The translations under genes and the position numbers were made by a program. This document shows, piece by piece, positions 879 through 63,841 of a DNA stretch of 64,000 nt. The first letter of the stretch is position 1, and every line of letters starts with the position of its first letter. Origin of the DNA: Verrucomicrobiaceae bacterium (GTDB lineage Bacteria; Verrucomicrobiota; Verrucomicrobiia; Verrucomicrobiales; Verrucomicrobiaceae); contig JAEUHN010000029.1 in NCBI GenBank assembly GCA_016795365.1, positions 62,001-126,000 on the forward strand, written 5' to 3'. The notes below the pieces were generated by a model that made no database searches, was not told the origin of the DNA, and saw only the letters and a list, made by a program, of their open reading frames with translations.

Positions 879-1331
879 ATGGCCGATTCGTTCCACTCGC
901 TGAACTACCACCTCATCTGGAGCACCAAGGATCGCTACCCGTGGTTCACGGCCGACATCGAGCCTCGCGTGTGGGAATACTTAGCAGGCATTGCCCGAGA
1001 GAAAGGGATGACGGCCATCTGCGTCGGCGGTTATCGGGACCATGTGCATCTGCTCGTGCGCGTGCCGCCCACGATGGAGTTGAGCAAGGCGGTGCAACTT
1101 CTCAAAGGGCCGTCGTCCAAGTGGCTGCGGGAGACGCTTCCGGGGTTCTCAACGTTCCATTGGCAGGACGGCTACGGAGCCTTCACCGTCAGCAAGTCGG
1201 GCATCGACGGCGTGGTCGAATACATCCGTGGTCAGGCCGAGCATCATCGCGTGAAGACGTTCCAGGAGGAGTTCATGGAGTTTCTGAAGCGCCACGAGAT
1301 CAATTACAAGCCGGAGTATCTGTGGGGGTAG
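879..1331 (+). CDS. REP-associated tyrosine transposase (Y1_Tnp / IS200-like, RAYT)
   Basis: This 150-residue protein is a single-strand DNA transposase of the HUH/Y1 class. The HUH metal-binding pair is H55-V-H57 in 'DHVHLLVRVP', and the likely nucleophile is Y115 in 'VEYIRGQAEHH', with Q119 and H122/H123 in the usual places. The segment 'GYGAFTVSKSG' is a signature of this subgroup. The frame stays open upstream to 699, but that part runs through the REP hairpin and has no recognisable protein features, so the ATG at 879 is chosen. The gene is intact and flanked by inverted REPs, which points to the RAYT type and away from a classical IS200 element. Confidence 0.88.
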   Translation: MADSFHSLNYHLIWSTKDRYPWFTADIEPRVWEYLAGIAREKGMTAICVGGYRDHVHLLVRVPPTMELSKAVQLLKGPSSKWLRETLPGFSTFHWQDGYGAFTVSKSGIDGVVEYIRGQAEHHRVKTFQEEFMEFLKRHEINYKPEYLWG

Positions 1332-30374: not shown

Positions 30375-30397
30375 GGAGCGCGGACACTCCTGTCCGC
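30375..30397. repeat. single GGAG-type REP-like hairpin
   Basis: GGAG-C is followed by a perfect 7-bp stem GCGGACA/TGTCCGC around a CTCC loop. The same motif occurs twice, in inverted orientation, at 63012-63096. Here it sits between the helicase stop and the pyrC start, so it will be transcribed and could cap the helicase 3' end or block the pyrC leader. Confidence 0.7.
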
Positions 30398-58837: not shown

Positions 58838-58957
58838 GCCGATTCATCGGCGGCGCGGCGACAGCCGCAAGGCCGGTCATGTGCATTTCAAATAGTGCCC
58901 GGTGCGTAAATGGGCTTCACGCCGGACGTTCGTCTCTGTAGCATCCGACCACTTTTT

Positions 58958-61900
58958 ATGAAACGCCTCATCCTCGCCGCCGCCGTTCTCCTTTCGTCAT
59001 TCGGCATTCCTCATTCGTCATTCGCGGCGGAGCCGTTGCGCGTCTTCATCCGCGCGGGTGCCAAGTCGCATGGTCCGGGCGCGCATGATTTCCCGCAGTT
59101 CCTCAAGGACTGGGTGCCCATGCTCAATGAGCGCGGCGCGAAGTGCGAGGGCTCGCTGGAGTTTCCGACGAAGGAGCAGCTCGACCGCACGGACGTGCTC
59201 ATCCTGCACGCGCAGGAGGCGGGCAATATCAAGATCGGTGACGAGCGGAAGAACCTCATGGAGTTCCTCGCGCGCGGCGGTGGCATCGTGACGCTCCATG
59301 CAGGCGCGGTGTCGCGTGATCCGGGTTGGTTTGCCTCGGTCGTCGGCGGCTCGTGGAATCATCAGCGGCCCACGAAGTGGCTGGAGGCACCGATGCATCT
59401 CTACTTCACCGATCGCGAGAACCCCATCACCACGGACATGGCGAACTTCGCGATGGACGACGAGATCTACTACGACATGGACGTGCTGCCCGAGTGCCGC
59501 ATCCTCGCCGGAGCCTACACGCCGAACCCGAAGGACACCGGCGGCAAGGGCAACAAGGAAGCCCAGGCACGCGCCGCCGAAGCCGTGGCGAAGAAGAAGG
59601 GCGTGAACATCTACGACATCCAGCCGCAGGTGTGGACATACGAGAAGGACAAGTATCGCTCCTTCGTCTGCATCCCCGGCCACTGGTATAAAAACTTCAG
59701 CCACAACACCCTGCGCACCATGCTCCTGCGCGGCATCGCCTGGGCTGGCAAGCGGGCGAACGCGGATGAACTCTGCAAGCCCGAGGAACTCGGCGACGCA
59801 CTCCGCTATCCCGAAGGCGGCCCCACGCATCCGACCAAGGCGACGGAGAAGCTCGAAGTTCATCCCGAGTTCAACATCTCGCTCGTCGCCGCTGAGCCGC
59901 TCATCAACAAGCCGATGAACATCGACTGGGATGAAAAGGGTCGCCTGTGGGTGGTCGAGACACCCGAGTATCCCAATGGTCGGCGCGAGCTGAACGTCGA
60001 GCTTTGGAAGGATAGCGGCTCGTGGACGAAGAAGCTCGACCGCGATCCCATCGACCGCATTGCCTGGCTCGAAGACACCAACGGCGATGGCGTGATGGAC
60101 AAGAAGCACGTCTTTGCCGACAAGCTCGAACTCTGCACCAGCTTCGTCTTCTACAAGAACGGCGTCATCGCCTGCGCCGCGCCTGACATCTGGAACCTTC
60201 AGGACACGGACGGCGACGGCGTCGCTGACAAGCGCGAGAAGCTCTACACCGGCCTCGGCATCCGCGACACGCATGCCGTGATCAACAACATGCGCTGGGG
60301 CCTCGATGGCTGGATCTACGCGACGCATGGTTACAGCTCCGGCGAAGTGACTTCGCCCGATGGCAAGATAAACTTCGGCACCGATGGCTCCGGCGTGGTG
60401 CGCTTCAAACCTGATGGCAGCGCCTTCGAGCAATACTCTTCACGCGGTGGCAACACCTGGGGCCTCAACATCACGTCGGATGGTCAGGTGTTCTGGACGC
60501 AGCCCACGAGCGGCACGGTGTTCTTCCACGTTGTGCTTCCTGAGTATGTCCTGGCCAAAGGCAAGCTCCCCGGCACGAACTCCTGGAAGGGCATGATGGA
60601 GCACCAGAAGAGCTACCCGCTCATGTCCTGGCCCGAGCAGGCGTATGTGCAGATCGACCTCGTCGGCGAGTTCACCGCCGCCGCCGGTTGCGCCATCTAT
60701 GAAGGCGGCGCGTGGCCCGCGAAGTGGAACTACAGCTACTTCACCACCGAGCCGACGCTGAACATCGTGCATCACGAGTTCGTCGAGAAAGACGGCGTGA
60801 CCTACAAGTCGCACAAGGAAGCCGGTCGTGAGGAGACCGAGTTCATCCGCAGCAAAGACCTGTGGTTCCGCCCCATCGAGACACGCATCGGCCCTGACGG
60901 CGCGCTGTATGTGATCGACTTCTACAATCAGGCCGTCATCCACAACGATACGCGCGGCCCGATCCACGGCCCCGCCAACGCCGCTGTGCGCCCTGACCGC
61001 GACCACTATTACGGACGCATCTGGAAGGTGAATCACAAGGAAGCCAAGCCCGTCGCTGGCAGCTTTTACCATCACGGCGAGAACTCGAAGGGCACGATGG
61101 GCAGCGCTGCGCTGCGCACTTATGAGTCGAATACAGATGCGCTCGCTACCTTCAAGTCCGCGCAGGATGACTGGACTCGCTCCGCTGTCATCGCCGCATC
61201 GGCGGATCATGCGGATGATGTGATCACGAAAGCCCTCGGTGCTCCTGAAGGCGCGGACTTGCTGGTGAAGTCGCTGCTGCCTCTGGCCAAGTCCGCCGAA
61301 AAGTTGATCGAAGCCTGCGCCAGCGCTGATGCGAAGGCCGATGCTTTGAAGATCATCATCCTGCAAGGAGTCGCGCAGCAGGTGAACGAAGTCCCAGCGC
61401 TCTCGCCTGCGCTCACGGATGCACTGAAGAAGCTCCTCGCTCAGCCCGCGCTCGCACCCGCAGCGCTGCCGCTCGCGGTGAAGTGGGACAAGGGCGGCGC
61501 GCTAGCCGATGTGATCAAAGCGCAGATCGCCAGCTTGAGCGGTGTGCTTGGTAAGAACGGCGCTCCGCTGCCAGAACGCATCGGTGCCGCGAAGGCGCTC
61601 ATTGCACTCGGTGGATCGAATGCGCAGATCGGTGTCGAGGCACTCGCTGATCCAACTTCGCCCGAGGAACTTGCTCGTGCAATCATCGTCGCACTCGACG
61701 AAACCGGCAACGCAGCACCGCTGGTGATGGCTTTGGACACACTGAAGCCTGCGCTGCAACAGGTCGCCTTCGATGCCGTGCTGAAGCGCCCGCAGGCCAC
61801 GCAGGCGCTGCTCACCGCGATTCAAGACGGCAAGTTCGATCCCAAAATCCTAGGACCCGGCAACATCGCCCGCCTCCGCACGCATCCGAACAAAGCGGTC

Positions 61901-63841
61901 GCCAAACGTGCTGCGACGATGATGGAAAAGCTCAACCCGAACGCGAAGAAGCGCGCGGAGTTGATCGCGCAGTTCACGCCCATCGTGGAGCAGCCGGGCG
62001 ATGCTGTGAAAGGCAAGGCACTCTTCGCTGCGGCGTGCGCGGTTTGCCACAAGCTCGGCGACATCGGCAAAGACGTGGCCCCGCCGCTCACTGGCATGGG
62101 CGCGCATGGTCCTGCCGAACTCGTCATTCACATCCTCGATCCCAATCGCGAAGTGGACCCGAGCTTCTACAACTGGAACATCACCAAGAACAATGGCGAA
62201 ACGCTCGCCGGTGTGATCGCTTCCGAGAACACTGCGACCGTCACCTTGCGCAATCAGGCGGGCGATTTCGAAGTAAAAAAGTCCGACATCAAGGAACGCG
62301 TGAACACAAAGATGTCGCTCATGCCCGAAGGTCTCGAAGGCCTCGGTGCGGAGAACATCCGCGACATCCTCGCCTTCATCGTTGGCGATGCCGCGAAACA
62401 CTTCCGTGTGATCCCTCTCACCGATGCGTTCACGGCGGACAGCCGTGATGGGCTCTTCGCCAGCCCTGATCCGCGCGGTGGACAGGTGAAGCTCGCGAAG
62501 TTCGGCAACGTCACCGTCGAAGGCATTCCCTTTGCTGTCGTTGATCCGGCCAAGAGCGCCACCGGTGCCAACCTCATCGTGCTCAAAGGCGGTCCTGGAC
62601 CTGACGTTCACGGCCAGACTTTCCCGGGGAAGGTTGAAGTCGCGCTCAACGTCGAGACCAAGCGCCTGCAACTTCTCAGCGGCATCAGCGGCTGGGGCTG
62701 GCCCGCCGTCCGCGAGGAGGACGTGGCGCTGCAAGCCACGGTCGTCTATGCCAGCGGCGACAAGGAAGTCTTTCCGCTGAAGAACGGCGTCGAGTTTGCC
62801 GACTACATCCGCCCCGTCGAAGTGCCCGGATCGAAGTTCGTCGAAGACCTCTGCAACGGCGGGCAGGTCCGCCTGATCACATTGAAGCTCACGAAGAAAG
62901 GCGTCGCGAAGTCCTTGATCCTCGAAAGCCCCAACGGCAACAAGACCACGCCCGTCGTCGCCGCCATCACTGCCGACATCGAAGGCCGCGTGGAAGCGAA
63001 GGGTGAAGAAAGGAGCGCGGGCACTCCTGCCCGCAATCCAAACAAAGGCGGCGAAGCCGCGAAGAATAAAGGAGCGGACAAGAGTGTCCGCGCTCCCGTG
63101 GACGGCCCCGCGCCTGCTGATTCACCCAAGGAAGGCGGCAAGGGCGATGGCCCGCTTGCGCCCACGACGGCTCCGGCTTGGGAAGCTGGCAAAACGAAGG
63201 TCCTCGTCATCGGCGGTGGCTCATCGCATAACTTCGCCAAGTTCTTCGGTGACACCGACGTGGCCACGCTCAAGGCCGCTGGCTACACCGTTCACTACAC
63301 CGAAGATCGCGACCAAGCCGCCGACCTCCTCGCCGAAGCCGACGTGGCCGTCATCAGCGTGAACCGCAAGTTCTTCGATACCGCCAAGTATCGCAAAGCG
63401 CTCTTCGACCGCGTGAACGCTGGCAAAGGCGTCGTGATGCTGCACCCTGGCACCTGGTATGGCTTTGGTGGATGGCCCGAGATCAACAAAGAGATCGTCG
63501 GCGGCGGTGCGCGCGGCCACGACAGGCTCGGCGAGTTCAAAGTCAACGTGACCCGCCGCGATCACGCCATCATGGTCGGCGTGCCGGACAGCTTCGAGGT
63601 ATTCGACGAGCTGTATTACATGAATGCCGAAGGCACTCCCGAAGGCACGAACAAGATCGAAGTCCTCGCCGAAACGTCGCCTTCACAAAAATACAACAAG
63701 CCCCATCCCAGCGTCTGGATCACCGACCATCCGAAAGCCCGCATCGTCGGCATCGCCCTCGGTCACGACGACAAGGTCCACGACTTGCCAGCCTTCAAAG
63801 CGATCCTCGCTAATTCGGTGAAGTGGGTGGCCGGGAAATAG
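58958..63841 (+). CDS. exported fusion: ThuA - PVC-type dehydrogenase propeller - HEAT-like - cytochrome c - ThuA
   Basis: This 1627-residue protein has a signal peptide (from MKRLILAAAVLL). Domains in order: ThuA (~25-280: 'VFIRAGAKSHGPGAHDFPQFL'); PVC-type membrane-bound dehydrogenase propeller (~300-720: 'MNIDWDEKGRLWVVETPEYP', 'WLEDTNGDGVMDKKHVF'); a HEAT-like helical region (~720-980); a cytochrome c with haem site C1027-A-V-C1030-H1031; a beta-rich region (~1135-1345); a low-complexity linker (~1345-1405) that includes an inverted REP pair at 63012-63096; and a second ThuA (~1405-1627). ThuA domains are tied to sugar metabolism (trehalose utilisation). The start at 58958 gives the signal peptide. 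A soluble periplasmic sugar oxidoreductase is inferred. Confidence 0.92.
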   Translation: MKRLILAAAVLLSSFGIPHSSFAAEPLRVFIRAGAKSHGPGAHDFPQFLKDWVPMLNERGAKCEGSLEFPTKEQLDRTDVLILHAQEAGNIKIGDERKNLMEFLARGGGIVTLHAGAVSRDPGWFASVVGGSWNHQRPTKWLEAPMHLYFTDRENPITTDMANFAMDDEIYYDMDVLPECRILAGAYTPNPKDTGGKGNKEAQARAAEAVAKKKGVNIYDIQPQVWTYEKDKYRSFVCIPGHWYKNFSHNTLRTMLLRGIAWAGKRANADELCKPEELGDALRYPEGGPTHPTKATEKLEVHPEFNISLVAAEPLINKPMNIDWDEKGRLWVVETPEYPNGRRELNVELWKDSGSWTKKLDRDPIDRIAWLEDTNGDGVMDKKHVFADKLELCTSFVFYKNGVIACAAPDIWNLQDTDGDGVADKREKLYTGLGIRDTHAVINNMRWGLDGWIYATHGYSSGEVTSPDGKINFGTDGSGVVRFKPDGSAFEQYSSRGGNTWGLNITSDGQVFWTQPTSGTVFFHVVLPEYVLAKGKLPGTNSWKGMMEHQKSYPLMSWPEQAYVQIDLVGEFTAAAGCAIYEGGAWPAKWNYSYFTTEPTLNIVHHEFVEKDGVTYKSHKEAGREETEFIRSKDLWFRPIETRIGPDGALYVIDFYNQAVIHNDTRGPIHGPANAAVRPDRDHYYGRIWKVNHKEAKPVAGSFYHHGENSKGTMGSAALRTYESNTDALATFKSAQDDWTRSAVIAASADHADDVITKALGAPEGADLLVKSLLPLAKSAEKLIEACASADAKADALKIIILQGVAQQVNEVPALSPALTDALKKLLAQPALAPAALPLAVKWDKGGALADVIKAQIASLSGVLGKNGAPLPERIGAAKALIALGGSNAQIGVEALADPTSPEELARAIIVALDETGNAAPLVMALDTLKPALQQVAFDAVLKRPQATQALLTAIQDGKFDPKILGPGNIARLRTHPNKAVAKRAATMMEKLNPNAKKRAELIAQFTPIVEQPGDAVKGKALFAAACAVCHKLGDIGKDVAPPLTGMGAHGPAELVIHILDPNREVDPSFYNWNITKNNGETLAGVIASENTATVTLRNQAGDFEVKKSDIKERVNTKMSLMPEGLEGLGAENIRDILAFIVGDAAKHFRVIPLTDAFTADSRDGLFASPDPRGGQVKLAKFGNVTVEGIPFAVVDPAKSATGANLIVLKGGPGPDVHGQTFPGKVEVALNVETKRLQLLSGISGWGWPAVREEDVALQATVVYASGDKEVFPLKNGVEFADYIRPVEVPGSKFVEDLCNGGQVRLITLKLTKKGVAKSLILESPNGNKTTPVVAAITADIEGRVEAKGEERSAGTPARNPNKGGEAAKNKGADKSVRAPVDGPAPADSPKEGGKGDGPLAPTTAPAWEAGKTKVLVIGGGSSHNFAKFFGDTDVATLKAAGYTVHYTEDRDQAADLLAEADVAVISVNRKFFDTAKYRKALFDRVNAGKGVVMLHPGTWYGFGGWPEINKEIVGGGARGHDRLGEFKVNVTRRDHAIMVGVPDSFEVFDELYYMNAEGTPEGTNKIEVLAETSPSQKYNKPHPSVWITDHPKARIVGIALGHDDKVHDLPAFKAILANSVKWVAGK
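58996..59023 (+). repeat. four tandem 7-bp repeats inside the signal-peptide coding region
   Basis: The units GTCATTC, GGCATTC, CTCATTC and GTCATTC follow each other without gap (consensus NNCATTC). They encode the end of the signal peptide ('SSFGIPHSSFA'). A period of 7 in coding DNA rotates the frame with each unit, so it is unlikely to arise from protein repetition. Confidence 0.75.
63012..63096. repeat. inverted pair of REP-like hairpins (REPIN-like) within the fusion gene
   Basis: The first arm (63012-63034) is GGAG-C plus the stem GCGGGCA/TGCCCGC with loop CTCC. The second arm (63074-63096), read on the other strand, is GGAG-C plus GCGGACA/TGTCCGC with loop CTCT. The 39-base spacer includes GCGGC-GAA-GCCGC. 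The pair stays in frame and encodes about residues 1352-1380, a charged, Gly/Ala-rich linker. The arms match the single copy at 30375-30397, with one base pair exchanged in arm 1. Confidence 0.8.

Follow-up and report, generated by a model that had tools for sequence, protein, structure and literature searches.

In-frame insertion of a REPIN as the probable origin of a linker segment in a fused ThuA protein of a Verrucomicrobiaceae bacterium

Introduction

How can a pair of facing, REP-like hairpins come to lie in frame inside a large gene, at the point where two domains of its product are joined? The locus raising this question belongs to a 64,000-nt stretch of contig JAEUHN010000029.1 from Verrucomicrobiaceae bacterium GCA_016795365.1; we refer to this whole stretch as the window, and coordinates below are window positions unless a contig (C..) or locus (L..) is given. 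An earlier note had recognized a REPIN-like pair at 63012-63096 as a translated domain linker and had offered two origins for it, either an intergenic REPIN trapped by the fusion of neighbouring genes or a later in-frame insertion.

Results

The host gene (58910..63841, + strand) encodes a 1643-aa protein with the domain order ThuA - DUF7133 (Piru_Ver_Nterm) - heme-binding CxxCH domain - ThuA. The DUF7133 match covers residues 308-711, the putative heme-binding domain is of the PVC type (TIGR02603; 61997..62380, + strand, residues 1030-1157), and the second ThuA domain (63263..63829, + strand, residues 1452-1640) is the better of the two ThuA matches in the ORF. An interdomain linker occupies 62978..63154 (+ strand, residues 1357-1415); an AlphaFold2 run covering the last 620 aa of the protein, in which 12 orthologs were included, gave pLDDT below 50 over this interval (residues 334-392 of the fragment). 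The linker is hypervariable, its length between two anchor motifs ranging from 24 to 105 aa among orthologs, and the REPIN sits in the middle of this predicted disordered region.

The REPIN (63012..63096, + strand, 85 bp) is an in-frame insert encoding residues 1368-1396 (RSAGTPARNPNKGGEAAKNKGADKSVRAP) between the heme domain and the second ThuA domain, and the frame of the 58910-63841 ORF is open across the pair, as the earlier note had read it. Arm 1 (63012..63034, + strand; GGAGCGCGGGCACTCCTGCCCGC) has the tag GGAG and is the G-C stem variant, and the inverted arm 2 (63074..63096, - strand, read 63096-63074; GGAGCGCGGACACTCTTGTCCGC) is the A-T stem variant; the perfect 7-bp stems previously described are present in both, each with a 4-nt loop. 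The 39-bp spacer (63035..63073, + strand) has a small GC hairpin of its own (GGCGGCGAAGCCGC) and differs between copies. Folded as RNA, the pair forms one long hairpin (-52.2 kcal/mol, z -7.5 versus shuffles), and folded as DNA it has a z-score of -6.2 versus shuffles. The third arm reported at 30375 is also real: it is a single arm of the same GGAG family in the A-T variant (30375..30397, + strand), and it is probably intergenic, since none of the ORFs across it shows a coding signal and the longest is without a match in Pfam.

A paired change between this arm and arm 1 had been taken as a sign that the hairpin is maintained for its structure. The A-T to G-C change is genuine, but it separates two equally common variants of the family (39 arms A/T, 31 arms G/C and 2 mixed in the fetched regions), so we discarded it as evidence of local maintenance. 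Upkeep of the structure is supported for the family only, whose stems covary across copies as would be expected if the hairpins are needed for mobility.

Counting the arm throughout the genome (6.74 Mb, 55 contigs) with at most 3 mismatches returned 35 + 34 arms (about 69), and a reversed-pattern control returned 0 arms in the same genome. As in REPINs, the arms form a dispersed repeat population (69 arms, 31 pairs), and their spacing is fixed: 22 pairs are short (84-113 bp) and 9 are long (165-187 bp), and none of the latter lay inside a gene. Arms were also found in 34 of 57 related genomes, with a maximum of 104 in one genome. A REP in the strict sense has a 5' tetranucleotide GT(A/G)G followed by a palindrome (PMC3686654); the palindrome is present here, but the tag is GGAG in nearly all copies, and we therefore call the arms REP-like.

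Statistics over all copies rest on fetched regions, and a pair was called genic when the ORF around it was 250 codons or longer and showed coding signal to either side of the pair. By this measure 13 of the 31 REPIN pairs in the fetched regions of the window's genome are in frame in large genes. In three other DUF7133 proteins a REPIN directly follows the DUF7133 domain, and one of the three has a second REPIN elsewhere; a fourth protein has one inside DUF7133. Other hosts are an MmeI-type restriction enzyme, with the REPIN between the methylase and recognition domains, a kinase, where it precedes a hydrophobic stretch resembling a membrane helix, a cellulase, where it precedes the carbohydrate-binding domain, a DUF1549/DUF1553 protein and a DNA methylase. 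Orthologs in the same-genus genome G001 lack the insert, with matching boundaries, at residues 270-298 of the protein on contig C10 and residues 701-730 of that on C3. In the linker after DUF7133 of the C10 protein, other orthologs have a GGAG REPIN (L128) or other palindromes (L126, L127, L129).

Several neighbouring observations concern similar positions. Loci L126, L127, L129 and L116, from other genera, have unrelated palindrome pairs (e.g., AACGAGTTTTCCAACTCGTT and GGGGAACAGGCGTCTCGCCTGTTC) where the window's genome has a REPIN, and in the G001 ortholog of the C22 DUF7133 protein (L123) expanded imperfect repeats (CACTTCCAAAATCGGAAA...) replace the REPIN in the linker. A Cas4-Cas1 fusion (L079, C23:2041-4263) has a single arm at C23:3161 between its domains, translated as GARTLLSA.

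The age of the window insertion relative to the gene fusion can be read from its relatives. The C-terminal ThuA domain was fused in 30 of 30 orthologs sampled from related genomes, as well as in all further public orthologs reaching the linker; together these sequences represent Verrucomicrobiaceae, Opitutaceae, Chthoniobacteraceae and others. Most fused orthologs have a linker without a REPIN. Because the nearest relatives are fused and have REP-free linkers, namely G001 (92% identical; a 63-aa Pro/Ala/Lys/Gly linker) and G011 (87% identical; also a Pro/Ala/Lys/Gly linker), the REPIN is younger than the fusion. Of the two proposed origins it is the later in-frame insertion that is supported, by the REPIN-free linkers in relatives and by the 12 further genic REPINs of this genome. 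No base-exact empty site was found among the orthologs for the window insertion, because the linker varies too much.

Full GGAG REPINs occur in the ortholog linkers of the window, L156 and L168/L170. On the tree these lie apart, in three positions, and the starred branches force three changes. Linkers L137/L139/L140/L145/L154 have a shorter pair whose stem core is the same; an unrelated GTAG-tagged pair (GTAGAACGAAC...GTTCGTT) is present in L141/L143/L157, and a single arm of the GTAG family in L158/L162/L165. In L166 the short pair has decayed, and one arm in L170 is interrupted. Both the GGAG and the GTAG families are dispersed repeats in most carrier genomes. In related bacteria this linker has gained hairpins independently, some of them similar and others unrelated, which indicates that mobile palindromes repeatedly supply spacer peptides there. 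The linker of L163, whose peptide (RAGFQPATSGPGILPGSGKAGKMPAAP) includes several small palindromes, contains one (GGCGGGCTTCCAGCCTGCC) that was not confirmed as a further REP family, as it has one copy in its genome.

Reading phase was strongly biased among the 23 genic pairs from four genomes, phases 1, 0 and 2 being used in the ratio 20:3:0. The favoured phase 1 yields the peptide (R/G)SA(D/G)TP(V/A)R (20/23 pairs), the second phase yields GARTLLSA (3/23), and the third was not used (0/23); these counts include the MmeI and DNA methylase families in two genomes each, and with one copy of each the favoured phase accounts for 18 of 21. Non-genic pairs, by comparison, had the phases open about equally often (0:1:2 = 37:35:32 of 66; p about 2e-7 versus genic). 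An insert length of 1 mod 3, with which both arms stay in the favoured phase, was found in 17/23 genic versus 9/33 non-genic copies (p 9e-4). Read in the third phase, an insert encodes about two cysteines, and in the second phase the peptide is more hydrophobic; phase 1 would be favoured because its peptide is low in both hydrophobic residues and cysteine. The simplest reading of the bias is selection on the encoded peptide after insertion.

The genome has ten Y1 transposase genes. A RAYT-like gene on contig C30 (about 2244-2915; locus L090, C30:1797-3045, outside the window) has GGAG arms on both sides (C30:1954, 2026 and 2183, and C30:2864 and 3023), the arrangement of a REPtron, in which a RAYT gene is flanked by the same REPs. 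The protein has the motifs NHVH and YIEDNP, a Pfam Y1_Tnp match over the cut-off, and a match to NCBIfam NF047646 REP_Tyr_transpos of 60.8 bits (E 1.3e-16), for which the curated cut-off is 80. Being REP-flanked, and with these motifs and the NCBIfam match, it is the probable mobiliser of the GGAG REPs. We also observed that its final codons extend into a REP arm and that several REP pairs lie on either side. The genome's best Pfam Y1_Tnp match is a 229-aa open frame at window 891-1235, a different transposase lineage with no GGAG REP arms nearby. Elsewhere, tandem arrays with 14-bp and 42-bp units (L034:1088-1395 and L035:2604-3191) adjoin Y1 transposase genes.

Discussion

We consider it very probable that a REPIN moved into the disordered linker of an already fused gene, in a process that is tolerated, phase-selected and recurrent. 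The REPIN is a short palindrome pair, mobile but non-autonomous, whose movement probably depends on a RAYT-like single-strand transposase, and its target was a predicted disordered linker in a gene fused beforehand. As the arms and most spacers have no stop codon in several frames, an insert with a net length that is a multiple of three would be translated, and it would be read as a Pro/Ala/Lys/Gly-rich peptide that the linker could tolerate. Insertions that break folded domains or shift the frame would be lost, and the survivors strongly favour the phase reading both arms as SA(D/G)TP(V/A)R ... (D/G)KS(V/A)RAP. In other lineages the linker has been filled independently by the GGAG family and the unrelated GTAG family, with inserts later decaying to ordinary linker sequence. 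Beyond spacing, the insert probably has no function of its own.

An origin by fusion would have dehydrogenase-like and ThuA genes as neighbours, with an intergenic REPIN between them that was translated as a linker once they fused. It accords with a REPIN placed exactly between domains, with the usual intergenic location of REPs, and with the single arm that separates Cas4 from Cas1 in a fusion gene of the same genome; however, linker-spanning orthologs of three families are fused and most are REPIN-free, which tells against it unless all of these lost the REPIN, and twelve other genic REPINs lie in quite unlike genes, several of them within one domain. We have set this origin aside on the strength of the REPIN-free fused orthologs, and consider it very improbable. 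Still more remote is the idea that the pair is chance GC-rich, low-complexity sequence within a hypervariable linker. Linkers here are indeed GC-rich and repetitive, and some orthologs have other small palindromes, but the copy number of the arm, about 69 near-identical dispersed arms against 0 in the reversed-pattern control, rules against chance, as does the folding z-score of -7.5.

Less improbable than these, though still unlikely, is that selection keeps an mRNA hairpin, e.g., one that pauses the ribosome between domains and thereby allows separate folding or export of the C-terminal ThuA. The RNA hairpin is very stable, between-domain positions recur, and arms are more conserved than flanks at shared sites: they are 46/46 identical at the DNA methylase site (L099/L244; flanks 0.83) and at the MmeI site (L109/L233; flanks 0.74-0.77), and 51/51 identical in the GTAG pair L143/L157 (flanks 0.82-0.88). 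Identical arms with 74-83% flanks at the first two sites are not predicted by a simple neutral insert, and independent insertion at the same codon, arm homogenisation or hairpin selection are possible explanations. The spacers at these two sites resemble one another no more than they resemble those of other copies; the identical arms are therefore accounted for just as well if the family inserted independently, and an ancestral shared insertion, which we considered as proof of arm conservation, was not established. Most orthologs, moreover, have no hairpin in the linker, the arms in L166 and L170 are decayed or interrupted, and the strength of the phase bias speaks for the peptide. We keep to insertion into a tolerant linker as the preferred reading. 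A wider proposition, that REPIN populations of this bacterial family are a recurrent source of interdomain linkers with a coding-compatible, phase-selected genic subset, that unrelated families converge on shared linkers in conserved multidomain proteins, and that the hairpins may be retained there because they also act in mRNA, strikes us as possible but rather doubtful.

One linker of a conserved protein, filled independently by two unrelated mobile hairpin families, together with a phase bias strong enough to measure peptide selection, offers a countable natural experiment in how selfish DNA turns into protein; the "extragenic" palindromes of this bacterial family, moreover, frequently lie within genes.

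Comparison with known systems

Like REPIN/RAYT systems (PMC3116915, PMC3686654, PMC8266576), the family described here combines inverted palindromic arms and a 5' tetranucleotide with stems that covary; its copies are dispersed and number in the tens, and its arms flank a Y1 HUH transposase gene. It differs from them in its GGAG tag and in its location: classical REPs are almost exclusively intergenic (PMC3116915, PMC3686654, PMC8266576), whereas 13 of the 31 sampled pairs here are intragenic.

In-frame genic palindromes are already known from the Rickettsia RPEs and from Opitutus terrae REPs, and the present case extends them. The RPEs, of about 150 bp (Ogata 2000, 2002; reviewed in PMC10969869), are likewise mobile palindromes lying in frame in many unrelated genes as tolerated peptides; the 85-bp REPIN is smaller and its host is not Rickettsia, and the likeness is one of behaviour only. 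Intragenic GTAG/CGTC REPs reach their maximum in Opitutus terrae, a member of the same phylum (Verrucomicrobia), where REPs or their dimers lie in ORFs and encode 20-30 aa, and recB of two Xanthomonas species has different REPs at about the same site (PMC3733652). As far as the available portions of these accounts extend, the present case adds two things: the bias in reading phase, and the arrival of unrelated REPIN families in a single linker in multiple lineages.
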